This document shows positions 14,024-58,804 of a stretch of DNA of 64,000 nucleotides, piece by piece. The DNA lies in NCBI GenBank assembly GCA_001787755.1, contig MFYJ01000011.1, positions 1-64,000 of the forward strand, given 5' to 3'. Each line of letters begins with the position of its first letter. The stretch's first letter is position 1. The notes beneath the pieces are model-generated. The model made no database searches, was not told the origin of the DNA, and saw nothing but the letters and a program-made list of their open reading frames with translations. This DNA is from Candidatus Peribacteria bacterium RIFOXYB1_FULL_54_35. Lineage in GTDB: Bacteria; Patescibacteriota; Gracilibacteria; Peribacterales; Peribacteraceae. A program made the translations under genes and the position numbers.

Positions 14024-14593
14024 CTACGCGAGCCCCAGCGCTTCCTTCAGTTTCTCGTAGAGAGTATCCACTGTGCCCTCTCCCGCAATCTCTATCATTC
14101 TCCCCTCCGCCTTATACTGCTTAATAACCGGTTCCGTCTTCTCATGAAATGTTGCCATGCGCTTGCGGACAATGGCTTCATTTGCATCATCTGTACGCCC
14201 CTGGTCTCTGGCGCGTTTGAGAATGCGCTGCAGGGCATCTTCCTCCTGGAGGAGGATGTGTACGCAGCGGAAATCCCTCCCCTCTTTCTTCATGATGGCT
14301 TGAAAATCCCGCTGCTGGTCTCTGTCCCGCGGGATGCCGTCAAAGAGGATCTTTTGACTCTCCTGCCGCTTCCCTATGGCTTCCTTCACCACCTGCATGA
14401 TGATCTTATGCGGGACGAGCTTGCCGACATCGATGTAGGACTGCACGGTCTCTCCGAGTTTTGAACCGGATGCTGCAATGGCACGGAGTTCCCCTCCTGC
14501 TTCAAAAATGCTGTACCCAAACTCCTGTGCGAGCTTCCTCGCCTGCGTGCCTTTACCGCTTCCCTGGATGCCGAAGAAAACGAGATCCATCAT
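14024..14593 (-). CDS. adk: Adenylate kinase
   Basis: 189 aa. Converts ATP + AMP to 2 ADP. P-loop GIQGSGKGTQARKLAQEFGY, NMP-binding region with FEAGGELRAIA (family usually has S(A/T)GDxLR), DGIPRDRDQQRDF, and a short LID (KRARDQGRTDDANEAIVRKR) without zinc Cys. The start MMDLVFFGIQG at 14593/14590 agrees with the family. The reading frame remains open upstream into a hairpin element; the first codons are duplicated at 14688-14709 on the other side of that element. Confidence 0.93.
   Translation of the reverse strand: MMDLVFFGIQGSGKGTQARKLAQEFGYSIFEAGGELRAIAASGSKLGETVQSYIDVGKLVPHKIIMQVVKEAIGKRQESQKILFDGIPRDRDQQRDFQAIMKKEGRDFRCVHILLQEEDALQRILKRARDQGRTDDANEAIVRKRMATFHEKTEPVIKQYKAEGRMIEIAGEGTVDTLYEKLKEALGLA
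14569..14590. repeat. 22-bp near-direct repeat, left copy (adk start)
   Basis: TGCCGAAGAAAACGAGATCCAT, the reverse complement of the first adk codons. It matches 14688-14709 (TGCCGAGAAAAACGAGATCCAT) at 20 of 22 positions. The two copies bracket hairpin element H4, as a target-site duplication would. Confidence 0.7.
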
Positions 14594-14609
14594 TGAGAAG
14601 GAAAAGAAG

Positions 14610-14687
14610 CACGCAGAATGTCGAATGTCGAATATGGAATGTTGGGATTTCCATATACCACATTCCATATGCCACATTCCCCTGAGT
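14610..14687. repeat. Hairpin element H4 inserted at the adk start
   Basis: Arms made of GAATGTCGAATGTCGAATATGGAATG and CATTCCATATGCCACATTCC units, folding around GGGATTTCCATATACC. Bounded on the right by a near-copy of the adk start codons (14688-14709). A minus-strand ORF that begins at that copy (MDLVFLGNSG...) reads through the element and stops after 39 codons: a relic of an interrupted adk 5' end. Confidence 0.7.
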
Positions 14688-14727
14688 TGCCGAGAAAAAC
14701 GAGATCCATACAGAGAGGGAGGAAATA

Positions 14728-15330
14728 CTATGCAACCCTGCGAACATTTTTTGGCTCACTGAGAGTGAGTGCTTGCTCAACGAGAGCGCGATCATCCGGC
14801 GGGAGTTGCACCATCTGGCTGATGCGGTTGATGACCGGCACCTGGGCATCCGGACCAACGGCCTCAGCAATCCGACTCCCCTCTGCAGCAAGCATTTGAT
14901 TGCATTTCGGCGTGCCGTTCCCATAGTGACTCACGCCGGCCCGCATACGCCCTACTGCATCATCCACTGTCCGGAGGATTTCCCTGGTGGATGCATCTTC
15001 CATGCTGAACGCAACTACCTGCCCTCCTTCTCCCCCTTCATAAATAGCTTTTGCCTGCGTATCTAAACGGCGGTACCGCTCTTTCACCCCTGGGTCTGAT
15101 TCCTGGAATGCGAAGTCCGCCCTGCCATGGAATTTGTGCGTGACCATATTCGCCGTCTCGACATACCACACAGCATCTGCCTGTCCCATGCCGCCAGTAA
15201 CAAGTTCATCGACCGTGCGCAAATGCATCTCCGTTCTGCGATGAGACATCTCTGCACTGCCCGGTTCAGGTCTCGGTGTTTCAGCTTGCCGTGCACCGAC
15301 TGGTGCTGCGGGTTCAGACAAGTTTCTCAT
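14728..15330 (-). CDS. Hypothetical protein between secY and adk
   Basis: 200 aa from ATG 15330, overlapping the secY stop in another frame (secY ends at 15314), which suggests coupling. N-terminal Pro/Ala/Glu-rich 30 residues, then a soluble alpha/beta-looking region with VDELVTGGMGQADAVWYVETANM, a middle GGEGGQVVAFSMEDASTREI and a C-terminal VINRISQMVQLPPDDRALVEQAL. One Cys (PKCNQ). No signal peptide or recognised domain. Its place in the secretion/translation operon is unusual, as secY-adk are normally adjacent. Confidence 0.8.
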   Translation of the reverse strand: MRNLSEPAAPVGARQAETPRPEPGSAEMSHRRTEMHLRTVDELVTGGMGQADAVWYVETANMVTHKFHGRADFAFQESDPGVKERYRRLDTQAKAIYEGGEGGQVVAFSMEDASTREILRTVDDAVGRMRAGVSHYGNGTPKCNQMLAAEGSRIAEAVGPDAQVPVINRISQMVQLPPDDRALVEQALTLSEPKNVRRVA

Positions 15331-16591
15331 AATCGTGCGCAAGGAGCTGCGCGTTGATCTGGCGGATGAGTTCCATCACAACTCCGACAACAATGATGAG
15401 TCCCGAACCGGAAATAATCAAATCCTGCGAACCCAGCGCCGAGTAGCGCGTGAAGAGGAGAGGGACAATGGCAACCACGGCGAGGAAGAGCCCGCCCCAC
15501 AGATTCATGCGGTTACTGACCTTGGCAAGAAGCTCTGCAGTCGGCTTGCCGGGACGCACACCGGGAATGAACCCGCCCCGCTTCTGGATGGTCTCTGCGA
15601 TGTCATCGGGCTTAAAGGTCACAGACACATAGAAGTAGGTGAAACCCATGACGAGCAGGAAATAGAGCGCCATGTACACCACGCTCGGATTCTGGGGATT
15701 GATGTAGATATTGATGAAATTCACCACAGGGCGGAACCGCTCTGCAGTGGAGAGGAACTGGGCAATGATCGCCGGAAGGGTGATGAGAGAGATGGCAAAG
15801 ATGATGGGGATCATTCCTGCCTGGTTGAGACGGATAGGGAGACTGGCCTGCACGCCGCGTCCTGCTCCCTGGTTCGCGTAGGTGATGGGGATGAGACGGT
15901 GTGCATCGGTAAAGAGCACCACCGCTACGAGCATAGCAAGCGATACAATGCTGAAGAGGTAGAACGCAGCCATTTTGCCTTCTCCGGCAATGAACATGGA
16001 ACTCACAACTGCGGGAATACCCGAAACGATTCCGGTGAAGATAATGAGGGAAATGCCGTTCCCTATGCCCTTCTCCGTAATGAGCTCTCCAAGCCACATG
16101 AGAAAGATGGAACCGGTAGTGACGAAGAGCATGGGACCAAGGACACCCGGGAAACTGAGATCCACCAGCCGTACCCCGCCCTGCCCGAGCAGGATGAGGA
16201 ACCCGTAGCTCTGTACGAAAGCAAGAGGGAGAGTGAGGTAGCGCGTGTATCGGTTGAGCTGTTGCTGGCCTGTTGCTCCTTCCTTACTGATTGCCTCGAG
16301 CTTAGGGAAGATGACAGTACAGAGCTGGATGATGATAGAAGCGTTAATGTAGGGAGAGAGCCCGAGCATTACGACGGAGAAGTTGTCTAAGGCTCCGCCG
16401 GTGAGGGCAGCAAATACCCCCACTGCACCTGCTCCTCCGCGTGAATCGAGAAACTGTGTGAGTGCGAACGTGTCCGCCCCAGGAACGGCGATATGCGCAA
16501 CAATGCGGTAGATAAAAAGCAGCCACAGCGTCACAAGGATGCGGCGTCGCAGTTCCTCAGATTGCCAGAGCTGTCGCAGATACCGGAACAT
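15314..16591 (-). CDS. secY: Preprotein translocase subunit SecY
   Basis: 425 aa with ten membrane segments. Forms the protein-conducting channel in the cytoplasmic membrane. Signatures: IYRIVAHIAVPGAD, plug-region MLGLSPYINASIIIQLC, WLGELITEKGIGNGISLIIF, and the cytoplasmic loop YANQGAGRGVQASLPIRLNQAGMIPIIFA followed by FKPDDIAETIQKRGGFIPGVRPGKPT. C-terminus normal. Downstream of rplO as in spc operons. Confidence 0.97.
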   Translation of the reverse strand: MFRYLRQLWQSEELRRRILVTLWLLFIYRIVAHIAVPGADTFALTQFLDSRGGAGAVGVFAALTGGALDNFSVVMLGLSPYINASIIIQLCTVIFPKLEAISKEGATGQQQLNRYTRYLTLPLAFVQSYGFLILLGQGGVRLVDLSFPGVLGPMLFVTTGSIFLMWLGELITEKGIGNGISLIIFTGIVSGIPAVVSSMFIAGEGKMAAFYLFSIVSLAMLVAVVLFTDAHRLIPITYANQGAGRGVQASLPIRLNQAGMIPIIFAISLITLPAIIAQFLSTAERFRPVVNFINIYINPQNPSVVYMALYFLLVMGFTYFYVSVTFKPDDIAETIQKRGGFIPGVRPGKPTAELLAKVSNRMNLWGGLFLAVVAIVPLLFTRYSALGSQDLIISGSGLIIVVGVVMELIRQINAQLLAHDYEKLV

Positions 16592-50205: not shown

Positions 50206-51606
50206 TTACACTTCTATCTCCTCCCCCCGCTCCGGCAGAGAAATGCCAAGATCACCCCGCACATGCTGCAGGCGTTCGGCAAACGGCTTCATCTGTTCTA
50301 TTTCTCCATGAACGAGGATGACCCTCTTCAGACCTTTTACACTGCAGACAAAATTATCGAGATCCGCCATATCCGCGTGGCCGGAGTATGCGTTAATGTA
50401 CACCGTCTTTGCCTTCTTCTCGTACACCTCCCCAAAGATCTTCACTTCAGAAATCTCGGGTTCCATGAGGCTGCGACCGAGCGTGTTCTCAGCCATGTAC
50501 CCTACCGCGACAATGGTATTGCGGACGTCCTCAAGGTTATTGCGCAGGTGGTGCCGAATGCGCCCGGCCTCGCACATCCCGGCACCTGCCATGATGACCA
50601 TAGGACCGGGAGTCCCATTGAGTTCCTTACTTTCCTCCGCACTCTCGGTGTACCTCACAAGTGAGAACTGGAACGGGTTGTGTGCCCTGGCTAAAAATTT
50701 CTCATACATGTCTTTGTCGTAGCACTCCGGATGCCTCATGAAGACACCCGTCACGCGTGAAGCGAGGGGCGAGTCGATGATAATGGGTACCGCAGGAATT
50801 TCCTTCGCATCCCACAGCACATGCAAGTCATAGACAATCTCCTGCGTCCTCTCGAGTGAGAAAGCAGGAATGATGATCTTTCCGCCGCGCTTTGACGTAC
50901 TGACTATAATCTCCTGGAGAGCATGCTTCGCCGTTTGAATGCCTTCATGCTCGCGGTTGCCGTACGTACTCTCACAGATGAGCGTTTCAACGGGTGGCAT
51001 ATCCGCCGGATCCCGGATGATTGGCAGCATGTTGCGCCCGAGATCGCCTGTAAAACCTACACGGTGCACTCTGCTGCCTTCCACAATTTCCAGCACAATC
51101 ATTGCAGCCCCCACGATGTGTCCTGCCTCAAGAAACTGCGCCTGCACTCCGTCGCAGACAGTAAACCACTCACCATAGTTCTGCCCCTGGAAGATCTCCA
51201 TGCAATCTATGGCATCCTGCTGCGTGTAGAGCGGCCCTTCGCACGCAAGCATCGTATCCGGCAGGTGCTTACGAAAGTATTCTTCGTCCTTCTCCTGAAT
51301 GTAGCCACTGTCCTGGAGCATCACATCAGCGAGATCCTTCGTTGCATAAGTACAGTACACCTTCCCTCTGTATCCCCTCTTGTAAAGCAATGGTATCCGG
51401 CCCACGTGGTCTGCGTGTGCATGGGAAAGGATCACAGCATCTATCTCCGCAGGCTCGAAAGAAAATTGCGAGTTCTTTGTGACAGCCTCTTTGCGATGCC
51501 CCTGGAAAAGCCCGCAGTCCAAAAGAATGCGCTTCCCGTTCGCAAGTTGAATTTCATGGCACGTGCCTGTCACCTCTCGTGCCGCACCATGGGAAATAAT
51601 CTTCAT
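50206..51606 (-). CDS. MBL-fold beta-CASP RNase/metallo-hydrolase
   Basis: 466 aa. HxHxDH metal motif SHAHADHVGRIP (about 57-68), further metal ligands VGFTGDLG and the C-terminal VHGE, beta-CASP inserts (SKRGGKIIIPAFSLERTQEIVYDL, IIIDSPLASRVTGVF, IMAGAGMCEAGRIRHHL, INAYSGHADMADLDNF). The domain plus the RNA-specificity end match COG1236-type (CPSF/YSH1-like) nucleases. No KH domains. Role in RNA turnover or processing inferred, possibly including rRNA. Confidence 0.93.
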   Translation of the reverse strand: MKIISHGAAREVTGTCHEIQLANGKRILLDCGLFQGHRKEAVTKNSQFSFEPAEIDAVILSHAHADHVGRIPLLYKRGYRGKVYCTYATKDLADVMLQDSGYIQEKDEEYFRKHLPDTMLACEGPLYTQQDAIDCMEIFQGQNYGEWFTVCDGVQAQFLEAGHIVGAAMIVLEIVEGSRVHRVGFTGDLGRNMLPIIRDPADMPPVETLICESTYGNREHEGIQTAKHALQEIIVSTSKRGGKIIIPAFSLERTQEIVYDLHVLWDAKEIPAVPIIIDSPLASRVTGVFMRHPECYDKDMYEKFLARAHNPFQFSLVRYTESAEESKELNGTPGPMVIMAGAGMCEAGRIRHHLRNNLEDVRNTIVAVGYMAENTLGRSLMEPEISEVKIFGEVYEKKAKTVYINAYSGHADMADLDNFVCSVKGLKRVILVHGEIEQMKPFAERLQHVRGDLGISLPERGEEIEV

Positions 51607-51885
51607 GAATCTTCAGGGAACTAGTGTAAAGATAGAGACCCCTCGAAGCTCGCAAGAGCGAAGTGGGGCTGGGCCGCTCCATGGGGAATTATTTTCATAC
51701 GGATGGCATGGTAGGGCAGAGAGGAAAAGAATGCCACCTCCACCCATGCTCACGGCGGCAAAAACATGTAAAAATGTGACTTCCACGCCTTCAGAATGTA
51801 TGTTCTCCCCATGTACGGGACCTCAGAAACTCCGGAACGTCTGAGTACAGGCCTCGGAAAACACTGCTCAGTTCGGAGACACCTC
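51607..51885. other. Divergent intergenic region
   Basis: 279 nt between the beta-CASP gene and the second CAP gene. GC-moderate, no convincing ORF, terminator or long repeat. It should hold two divergent promoters, but no clear -10/-35 pair was found. GGACCTCAGAAACTCCG...GGCCTCGG near 51830-51860 is weakly symmetric. Confidence 0.5.
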
Positions 51886-56629: not shown

Positions 56630-58804
56630 ATGAATGTACGTCGCTTTGCTTTGTTCATCGCTCTCGTGTGCCTCAGCACGGCTTCTGCCGTGGTAGGCAC
56701 CTACGCAACAGCCGGATTGCTGGCTTTCGATACCGGAGGCAACGGCAGCCCACCGTGCTATGCAGAAAAATGCTGCTATATCTGTGACAGAGATGGGCTG
56801 GGCGGATCTGCCATCTGTAAACAAGTGGAATGGTTCTCTGATTACGGAGTGGATTTTGACATGCACTGTAACGAAGCAAGTTACGCAGAGGGTAGTGGAG
56901 GGAAGTACTGGCTCACCATGATGGCCTGCGGAACATCCGGGGAGTGTTTTAGTGGTGGTGGAGGGGGAGGGCAAGGTAAGTCCGGGAATTCCAGCACACC
57001 GAGCAATACCACCTGTGGTGACGGGCAGGATAATGAGGGGGACGGGTTTATAGATTGGGATGATCCTGATTGCATGGGAGGGTGGCCCACAGGCGAGAAT
57101 AATTTCAATGGATCAAGTTCCTCAAGCCCCTCTTCAACCTGTGGCGACGGAATAGACAATGAGGGAGATGGGTTTATAGATTGGGATGATCCTGATTGCA
57201 TGGGAGGGTGGCCCACAGGCGAGAATAATTTCAATGGATGGAGTTCCTCAAGTCTTCCTCCCACCTGCAACGACGAGCAGGATAATGACGGGGACGGGTT
57301 CATAGACTGGAATGACCCCGACTGTCCCCAGATGGGCGGCTCTGCCGGCGGAGAGATACATGACAACAGAAACAATGGCTCGGGCGGTGGTACTGGAGGA
57401 AGTAGTGGGCAAGGTGGTGGAGGTGCTGGGGGAAGAAGCTCCAGCGGAGTCTCAACATGCTTTGACGGGCAAGACAATGATACGGATGGATTTGCTGACG
57501 GTAACGACCCTGACTGCTACACAAATGGCAGAGGACAGGAGGGAAACTCCACTGATGCCGCAGATCTGATGGTAAACATCTTCGGCCCAGAGAAACTTGA
57601 GCAGGGAGAAGTGGTGTCGTACGCCGTCGTCGTCGAAAACCGGGGAACAGCATTCGCCAACGGCATCGATGCCTATGCCACCCTGGCGAATAATGTGACG
57701 TATATTGGAGATGGAAACATCCCGTGTAACAGGAATGGCAATACATTCCACTGTACATTCACCCTCCAGCCATCGGAAAACAGAAGGATACTCTTCCAGT
57801 TACTGGTCAATGACCAGCAACTACAGACCGACTGCGGGAAAAGCATCTCTGCAATCGAAGTATCGACTTTCACCACGACGAAAGAGAACAACCGTGCAAA
57901 TAATGCTGCAGCAGCTGCATCTCCGCTGCAATGCAGGCAAAGTACACAGCAGAGTTCTTCGCAGCAGGGTGTGCGATCCCAAAACAATGAGCAACAGCGA
58001 ATTGAGGAACTCCAGCAGCACCTCCAGATGCAACAGCTGCAAAATGCAGTACAAAATCCCCCGCTTGCACCCCCCCAGCCGGATCTCGGCTGTTTTACTG
58101 TAAATGGCTTGTGGACTTCAGAGCGCACTCTCTGCGACGAAAATCAGGGCAAGCACGTGCAGGAGCAAACCGAGCAGTCTCCACCTTCACCCGCCCCATC
58201 GGACAGGACCGTAGAACAAATGCAAAAGGTACTTCACCGGCGCTTTATGCCCACAGAGAAGCACCAAATGCTCCTGAACACTATTTATGAATCACGTGAT
58301 AAGCTCCTGTACATTCAGGAACAATTCAATCTCCAGGAAAAAGACCGACAGTTCGTACAATACAACATCAATTGGCTGAACGGTCAGACATCATTCTTCA
58401 CCTCGCAGAACTATACGCAACAGAACATGAACGTGCTCATGGAAAGCATCCACCACATTGCATCAGAAACGGAGAGAATGCTCCACCCTGCTGAGCAGCC
58501 GGGACCCGATATCGCCACAATTATTTCCCAGACCTGGAACTTGCTCCAAAAGACATACAATGTCTTCCAGGTGCTCTTCCGTGAGCAGATCCCTGTCAAT
58601 CCGTCTCTCATAGCTGAGTTTCAGCGAGCAAACACCTTGCTTGTCGATGTACAAAGCCGATGCCTCGCCGATGCAAGTTCTTGCGGTGATTTAAGCGAGG
58701 TGCTTACAGTCATTGAACCCCTATTGAAAGAATTGAATGCGATCGTTGAATCATCCAATAATCCTGCCATCGCGGAGGAGGTCTCACGGATATTCGCCCA
58801 ATAA
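56630..58804 (+). CDS. Secreted protein with Asp-rich repeats and DUF11-like domain
   Basis: 724 aa. Signal-like N-terminus (about 1-32). Residues about 40-110 Cys-rich, Gly runs (GGGGGG). Then four repeats of C-x-DGxDNxxDGFxDxxDPDC type (about 126, 170, 212 and 285), thrombospondin-3/dockerin-like calcium loops. A DUF11-like beta domain (about 315-410; EVVSYAVVVENRGTAFANGIDAYATL), Gln-rich stretch and a helical C-terminal third. Two of the repeats are near-identical in DNA (57040-57110 and 57166-57236), showing recent duplication. Cell-surface adhesion is inferred. Confidence 0.88.
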   Translation: MNVRRFALFIALVCLSTASAVVGTYATAGLLAFDTGGNGSPPCYAEKCCYICDRDGLGGSAICKQVEWFSDYGVDFDMHCNEASYAEGSGGKYWLTMMACGTSGECFSGGGGGGQGKSGNSSTPSNTTCGDGQDNEGDGFIDWDDPDCMGGWPTGENNFNGSSSSSPSSTCGDGIDNEGDGFIDWDDPDCMGGWPTGENNFNGWSSSSLPPTCNDEQDNDGDGFIDWNDPDCPQMGGSAGGEIHDNRNNGSGGGTGGSSGQGGGGAGGRSSSGVSTCFDGQDNDTDGFADGNDPDCYTNGRGQEGNSTDAADLMVNIFGPEKLEQGEVVSYAVVVENRGTAFANGIDAYATLANNVTYIGDGNIPCNRNGNTFHCTFTLQPSENRRILFQLLVNDQQLQTDCGKSISAIEVSTFTTTKENNRANNAAAAASPLQCRQSTQQSSSQQGVRSQNNEQQRIEELQQHLQMQQLQNAVQNPPLAPPQPDLGCFTVNGLWTSERTLCDENQGKHVQEQTEQSPPSPAPSDRTVEQMQKVLHRRFMPTEKHQMLLNTIYESRDKLLYIQEQFNLQEKDRQFVQYNINWLNGQTSFFTSQNYTQQNMNVLMESIHHIASETERMLHPAEQPGPDIATIISQTWNLLQKTYNVFQVLFREQIPVNPSLIAEFQRANTLLVDVQSRCLADASSCGDLSEVLTVIEPLLKELNAIVESSNNPAIAEEVSRIFAQ

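Follow-up and report, generated by a model that had tools for sequence, protein, structure and literature searches.

Integrative elements, which carry an integrase, enter the chromosome at the ends of genes and restore the interrupted gene with sequence from attP. A different way of exchanging the end of a gene has been described in fungal mitochondria, where mobile open reading frames (ORFs) swap the termini of atp6, atp9, cox2 and nad3 in Glomus and of atp6 in Allomyces (PLoS One 2013, PMC3630166). According to the available text of that paper, the inserted, diverged terminus is the one that works, the native one is displaced and yet stays near the sequence of the sister species, and the protein is better conserved than the DNA; the insert carries a homing endonuclease ORF, and the cases described are 3’ ends. 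In bacteria, REP elements and their RAYT transposases are known for palindromes tagged with GTAG or CGTC, which are found near and in genes (PMC3733652, PMC8266576). The parts of these two papers available to us do not mention the duplication of gene termini with REPs, and ‘duplicat’ is absent from the main text of PMC3733652. PMC3733652 also mentions the Rickettsia palindromic elements, which are palindromes within coding sequence. Finally, in homology-facilitated illegitimate recombination one end is joined by homology and the other illegitimately (PMC3240628), which would be expected to give partial duplications with foreign DNA; the available text of this source does not mention a hairpin at the junction. 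Searches of the open-licence PMC literature have returned no description, for bacteria, of the architecture presented here, in which a small hairpin accompanies a doubling of the opening or closing codons of an ordinary gene, with one copy working and one left over.

The locus that first drew attention to this architecture lies in a window of 64,000 nucleotides (contig MFYJ01000011.1, positions 1 to 64,000) of Candidatus Peribacteria bacterium RIFOXYB1_FULL_54_35, a genome referred to below as G000. In gene direction, the order is secY (identified by its Pfam match), a 204-codon ORF, an outer copy of the adk start, a hairpin, a spacer and an inner copy that opens adk (Table 1). An earlier note on this DNA had reported that the two copies match at 20 of 22 positions and that the inner one begins the real gene. 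Both statements are borne out, the first by a repeat search and the second by the coincidence of the inner copy with the start of the Pfam-supported adk. Because adk is encoded on the minus strand, from 14590 down to 14024, the copy at 14569-14590 is the real gene start and the one at 14688-14709 lies upstream. The 22-nt copies are 91% identical and have a spacing of 119, with 97 nt inserted between them. The copies lie inside a longer repeat, for the two flanks of the hairpin can be aligned for 41 nt, beginning some 12 nt ahead of the ATG and reaching some 29 nt into the gene, with a score of 22; a score of at least 18 is expected from shuffled partners at 0.2 of the 286 hairpins of G000. Chance as the sole origin of the repeat is rejected by this shuffled-flank alignment, by the comparison of family loci and by the strict scan with control windows, both of which are given below.

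Other elements of the first description have to be revised. The copies had been said to bracket the hairpin exactly, but its arms (14623-14642 and 14660-14679 in the repeat search) leave gaps of 8 nt on the side of the outer copy and 32 nt on the side of the inner copy. By eye, this hairpin is an array of 7-mer-like units, and the stretch from the relic start to the real start folds at -31.3 kcal/mol. The outer copy opens the ORF MDLVFLGNSGECGIWNVVYGNPNIPYSTFDILRASFPSQ, which is at frame offset 2 relative to adk and had been called dead; with 39 codons and a TGA whose last base is common with the real ATG, that label is unsupported. The 204-codon ORF between secY and adk (14728-15342, minus strand) has no Pfam match, and the gap between these two genes ranges across the family from 2 nt to more than 2 kb. 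Elsewhere in the window, a repeat with a 126-nt period lies within an ORF at 57018-57318.

Table 1. Coordinates, in the window, of the features at the two loci with a duplicated gene start.
Feature	Position	Strand	Basis or remark
adk, adenylate kinase	14024..14590	-	Pfam ADK, E 3.6e-34
Inner copy, real adk start	14569..14590	-	repeat reaches 14562-14602
Spacer, hairpin to real adk start	14591..14622	-	about 32 nt, from sequence
Hairpin at adk	14623..14679	.	20-nt arms, 90% complementary, 17 nt between arms
Outer (relic) adk start	14688..14709	-	repeat reaches 14680-14720
Leader ORF, relic adk start through hairpin	14590..14709	-	39 codons, stop overlaps real ATG (TGATG)
Beta-CASP/MBL-fold hydrolase gene, real start MKIISHGAA at 51606	50206..51606	-	Pfam PF10996, E 5.4e-39
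Relic start MKIIPHGAA of the beta-CASP metallo-hydrolase gene	51672..51698	-	scan for peptide-level start copies
REP-like hairpin after MBL relic, CCCCACTTCGC..GCTTCGAGGGG	51639..51668	-	same codon position in six relatives
MBL leader ORF	51621..51698	-	25 codons, stop begins 17 nt before real ATG

Matches to adk are found in 70 of the 74 family genomes, and 69 family loci have been compared over the secY-adk interval or, if no secY was identified, over at most 1.5 kb upstream. Four genomes among these loci have another adk start that departs from the first at no more than 5 of 22 positions, namely G000 (2 mismatches), G004 (two relics, 5 and 5), G029 (5) and G089 (5), and the best second-start match has at least 8 mismatches at all other judgeable loci (G008 has masked N at its start and is not judgeable, and G011 and G082 have less than 300 nt upstream). 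None is present within 5 mismatches in ten genomes from other families of the class, where the best match has 7. All four family loci with two starts carry an insert between them, and both copies without a hairpin were not encountered among the 69. The empty site that the earlier note had suggested looking for is seen in G073, which has a single copy at the locus that is duplicated in G004. By eye, a REP-like hairpin follows directly after codon 8 at adk of G004 (-83), G029 and G089. Furthermore, a pattern scan of genome contigs gave four matches, with G004 (JACOTD010000004.1, Candidatus Peregrinibacteria) and what is probably G089 (JAHISE010000053.1) among them; a Candidatus Peribacteria record (L112) provides a fifth adk case, and the fourth match, a tandem repeat in a gammaproteobacterial record, looks unrelated.

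Several other features of these adk regions are worth recording. G004 has a further relic of the adk start (L023:689-1300) of 29 codons, followed by apparent toxin–antitoxin genes (by eye), and its upstream context equals that of the single adk in G073. In G088 (L047), the last secY codons (HDYEKLV and stop) are repeated about 100 nt upstream of adk and about 300 nt past the real secY end. Two tandem adk-like genes are found in each of G006, G028 and G042. In G044, G048, G055 and G057, which belong to other families of the class, TGA codons lie in frame within the adk matches, as they would if TGA were read as sense in these genomes.

The window holds a second case, at the gene for a beta-CASP/MBL-fold hydrolase (MBL), where the relic start lies 92 nt upstream of the real one. 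The protein is matched in 67 of the 74 family genomes, a few of them weakly, and the DNA has been examined in 31 genomes (the 30 best loci and G033). Relic and hairpin are present at the same codon boundary in 7 of these 31 (G000, G002, G033, G063, G011, G079 and G086), in the form of tandem units in G079 and G086, and a single start within 400 nt is found in 24. The same insertion codon is thus affected in several genomes, codon 10|11 in MBL and codon 8 in adk, which suggests either a site preference or the spread of one unit.

Duplications at other hairpins, for which the earlier note had also advised a search, are present at other elements, the affected genes being named from Pfam matches and tRNA calls. 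In 852 kb of G000, the 5’ cases comprise POR, a glycosyltransferase, gatB, HIT (with two relics), lepA and a PD-(D/E)XK protein; other genomes contribute trmD and a glycosyltransferase (G029), L313 (G091) and tRNA-Val (G089). The 3’ cases include uvrB, RNase J, genes ending in CYLxxV[HY] and others, together with the 3’ ends of tRNA-Glu, tRNA-Phe and tRNA-Pro; the RNase J end, the CYLxxV[HY] genes and tRNA 3’ ends count among the cases in G000. The arrangement at 5’ ends is relic, hairpin, spacer and working tip, and at 3’ ends working tip, spacer, hairpin and relic, so that the hairpin adjoins the relic in both (by eye). The uvrB duplication occurs in 2 of the 30 genomes examined, and the other 28 have a single copy. 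Four CYLxxV[HY] genes at L195, L196 and L219 of G000 each have a displaced copy of their terminus behind a hairpin, and one gene of this type, when tested, gave a treble-clef zinc-finger match below the curated cut-off.

A strict scan over 40-190 nt returned 23 matches (14 in G000, 2 in G029, 4 in G089 and 3 in G091), compared with 9 in three more distant windows of the same width, although it misses known cases (window adk, gatB, uvrB) and some of its matches look like other repeats (L205, L210, L222, L232:11402). In 200 kb of E. coli K-12, all four windows of the same scan were empty. At hairpins with 9-nt arms, a test that misses REPs with imperfect arms, flank repeats score at least 14 at 4 of 286 hairpins in G000 (0.8 expected), 0 of 96 in G029 and 1 of 136 in G089 (0.6 expected), and most hairpins are therefore without such a duplication. 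Two scans for start copies passed over frame-0 copies that lack a stop, and likewise pairs in which ATG opens neither copy. Some repeats include non-coding DNA, as at RNase J (L203, 59 nt), L232 (about 64 nt) and tRNA-Glu (L231, about 56 nt), with lengths taken by eye. Two further observations in G000 concern a 65-nt repeat at L205:15433-15675, the second copy of which overlaps a tRNA-Met at 15619-15694, and a REP-like hairpin of 36 nt at L116 (G000:C1:22923-22958), which by eye lies apparently in frame inside a gene and has no duplication.

The relic and the working copy differ mostly at synonymous sites. Synonymous codon differences number 52 and nonsynonymous ones 5 in 11 3’ cases, and in 14 5’ cases the numbers are 43 and 12, gatB giving no codon count since its working copy is one codon longer. 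Over the 22 cases with at least 6 codons, the nonsynonymous share is 17/109. If half of the changes had fallen on an unconstrained relic, a share of 0.30 (0.21-0.39) would be predicted, and if a quarter had, 0.09-0.27; the pooled share fits the latter model, while the 3’ set (5/57) lies far below the former and the 5’ set (12/55) within its range. By eye, many copies cease to resemble each other beyond the start or stop codon, their non-coding neighbours being unlike. This is the pattern of two diverged functional genes and not of a decaying duplicate, with L203, L231, L232 and, in part, the window adk as exceptions in which non-coding DNA is similar as well.

A close pair of genomes, G087 and G091, offers a view of the gene bodies next to such inserts, as identity over the uvrB and secY-adk regions compared is about 90% (87-92% for the individual pieces). 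An insert follows uvrB in G087; between secY and adk, G091 has a hairpin-bearing stretch of 86 nt, and the corresponding gap in G087 is 2 nt. In the 15-codon bins beside the inserts, 11 synonymous differences are counted at the end of secY, 8 at the start of adk and 11 at the end of uvrB; bins elsewhere have 0-8, with one far adk bin also reaching 8 and a patchy distribution in uvrB. In the first 36 nt of adk, G087 pairs with G088, and G091 with G090, at 4 of 4 informative sites, whereas 68 of the 74 informative sites in the rest of the gene group G087 with G091; the secY and uvrB tails hold too few informative sites for the same comparison of tip and body.

Comparison with congeners indicates which copy is the native one. 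At the four loci where alignment to a congener is informative, the surroundings of the relic are native, unlike those of the working copy. The local scores of the outer flank, for relic versus working copy, are 20 vs 6 at MBL of G000 and 19 vs 8 at MBL of G002 (both against G001), 54 vs 6 at the first adk relic of G004 against G073, and 50 vs 5 at uvrB of G087 against G091, where the 99.9% level of a null from shuffled adk upstream regions is 13. The copies themselves follow the same direction: the relic shows 5 differences to the congener and the working copy 7 at MBL of G000, 3 vs 7 at MBL of G002, and 6 vs 13 at uvrB, and at adk of G004 the two relics show 3 and 2 and the working copy 5. 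A working terminus that has diverged from the sister species and a displaced native one close to it, as in the fungal systems, are thus found at uvrB of G087, MBL of G002 and G000 and adk of G004. Other loci give less direction. At MBL of G063 the relic is again the closer copy (7 vs 9 differences), with flank scores of 8 vs 11, the second relic of G004 has flank scores of 6 vs 6, and adk of G089 ties overall against four congeners (relic/working 5/5, 4/6, 5/5 and 5/4). At the window adk, the counts are 6/6 against G001 and 8/6 against G002, the relic being if anything further away, and its outer copy would be the native one by analogy with the other loci.

These results bear on the proposal of the earlier note that an insertion had duplicated about 22 bp of the adk 5’ end. 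Insertion with duplication of the gene start is retained, with single-copy sites in relatives; a plain target-site duplication of about 22 bp is not, as repeat lengths vary, the working copy lies outside its native context at the informative loci and the differences are mostly synonymous. At the window adk itself, where the congeners give no direction and the repeat continues some 12 nt upstream of the ATG, a true duplication may have taken place. A classical transposon would be flanked by flush repeats of fixed length that are identical at first, with both copies in native flank. The window adk has gaps of 8 and 32 nt, and at the four informative loci the relic alone continues natively.

With regard to the 5’ relics, the ORF that starts from the relic tends to end at the working start. 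Such a leader ORF stops at most 8 nt from the working ATG in 16 of 21 cases (4/5 at adk, 4/7 at MBL and 8/9 at other genes), a limit that was chosen after the cases had been seen; these cases (5 adk, 7 MBL, 9 others) are not independent, and two of the source scans left out frame-0 cases that lack a stop. When the frame is shifted by one or two positions, such a stop is found in 3 of 42 (Fisher p 4e-8), and in 1 of 23 (p 8e-7) when the gene’s own frame is left out, as a stop after the ATG is impossible there. Gene callers should take note that the gene does not begin at the first ATG of such a locus.

On balance, it seems probable, if by no means assured, that hairpin-marked gene termini are swapped in, so that the imported tip works and the native tip is left behind as a relic. 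The incoming DNA, derived from diverged relatives, would bring a hairpin, a short spacer and a version of the gene’s own tip that differs in sequence yet serves the same function. Its body side would join by homology within the gene and its hairpin end, at the outer edge, somewhere in the final 20-50 nt of the native tip. From then on, the gene would run from the imported tip, with the severed native tip remaining as a relic beyond the hairpin; at 5’ ends the relic would keep the native upstream region and become a translated leader through the hairpin. Since the leader ORF stops at the imported start, it is proposed that ribosomes can re-initiate there, and the simplest reading would be that they begin translation at the native start, unwind the hairpin, terminate and start again at the imported one. 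Once established, units may spread further through ordinary homologous exchange; this would explain why one and the same codon is affected in several genomes, and it is only through such later transfer that the swap model covers the shared insertion codons. A homologue of the ComEC family (DNA uptake) is present in G000. For adk, the gene tried, no donor of the working tips was found among the upstream regions compared. A more far-reaching form of this explanation, which is put forward tentatively, would see here gene-less bacterial mobile units, each bound to one host gene and made up of hairpin, spacer and recoded tip, that move between species by replacing the native tips of housekeeping genes; at gene starts, the severed native start would become a translated leader coupled to the new start.

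The main rival explanation, which appears rather unlikely, holds that a hairpin element transposes with a long target-site duplication (about 40-65 bp) and that the copies then diverge. It would account for the repeats that include non-coding DNA on both sides of the hairpin at L203, L232 and L231, for the 41 nt at the window adk, where the copies differ by only 2 of 22 and the repeat runs about 12 nt upstream of the ATG, and for the tandem MBL units in G086 and G079. REP-like hairpins and Y1 transposases (PF01797) occur together in G004 (2 matches), G029 (6) and G089 (2), and speak for it too, but G000 has no PF01797 match in a genome that is 97.85% complete. The same explanation is opposed by the native flank of the relic and the non-native flank of the working copy at four loci, by the mostly synonymous differences and by repeats that often end at a start or stop codon (by eye) and are not constant in length. 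As for the nature of the hairpins, GCTAC/GTAGC cores are seen by eye at adk of G004, G029 and G089, at a tRNA and at several MBL sites, and palindromes of 20-40 bp with a GTAG or CGTC tag, also by eye, at these three adk loci and the tRNA; the tag is absent from the window adk hairpin, which, unlike REPs, is a 7-mer array. RAYT-driven transposition as the sole explanation in G000 is rejected, there being no PF01797 match.

It is more doubtful still that a duplication of any origin was followed by recoding of the working copy, through selection for re-initiation or against recombination between the repeats. The clustering of leader stops at the real ATG would agree with this, as would a K2R change in three MBL working copies (G033, G063 and G011) and the working starts of trmD, lepA and adk of G004, G029 and G089, which look more A+T-rich than their relics (by eye). 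However, 3’ termini are recoded equally strongly, with no initiation involved, and the adk tip tree differs from the body tree in G087, G088, G090 and G091.

That difference between tip and body also weighs against hypermutation beside hairpins in replication or repair, filtered by purifying selection, which is decidedly improbable even though the divergence between G087 and G091 climbs towards the insert in uvrB, secY and adk. Short imported tips would explain the conflict in adk of this pair, and hypermutation would not. Moreover, 3’ relics, which lie beside the hairpin, are nearly without nonsynonymous change (5/57, where the half-on-relic model gives 0.21-0.39 for the whole set). That the window repeat is what is left of an ancient tandem duplication of adk and has nothing to do with the hairpin is scarcely credible and as a sole explanation is rejected, for although tandem adk-like genes exist in G006, G028 and G042, the second gene is 39% and 30% identical in G006 and G028 and lies downstream, and the same architecture recurs at many unrelated genes.

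Among the described systems, the fungal mitochondrial mobile ORFs provide a close parallel to the swapping of hairpin-marked tips, but no endonuclease is involved here: most of the listed inserts, at about 40-100 nt, have no room for one. Where the fungal elements carry an ORF at 3’ ends, a gene-less hairpin and spacer are found here at 5’ ends, 3’ ends and tRNAs of a bacterial chromosome. Integrative elements (ICE/IME) resemble the present cases in that insertion occurs at a gene end, the working terminus is restored and the native one is severed; conversely, no integrase is present, the window insert between the copies has 97 nt and the inserts are gene-less. Rickettsia palindromic elements stay in frame inside the protein, whereas here the leader ORF ends and the gene restarts, the window leader being out of frame with adk and stopping at its ATG. 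With regard to the one-sided homology of homology-facilitated illegitimate recombination, the four genomes with discordant adk tip and body trees stand beside the adk donor that was not found.

If the reading of these hairpins as tip-swapping units is true, such units would keep the host gene working and could therefore invade even essential genes. It would show how palindromic repeats enter the ends of essential genes in compact bacterial genomes without killing, and would explain sharp rises in synonymous divergence at gene tips. Furthermore, it would provide a bacterial counterpart to the terminus-swapping elements of mitochondria and an instance in which re-initiation after a severed start codon can be put to the test.
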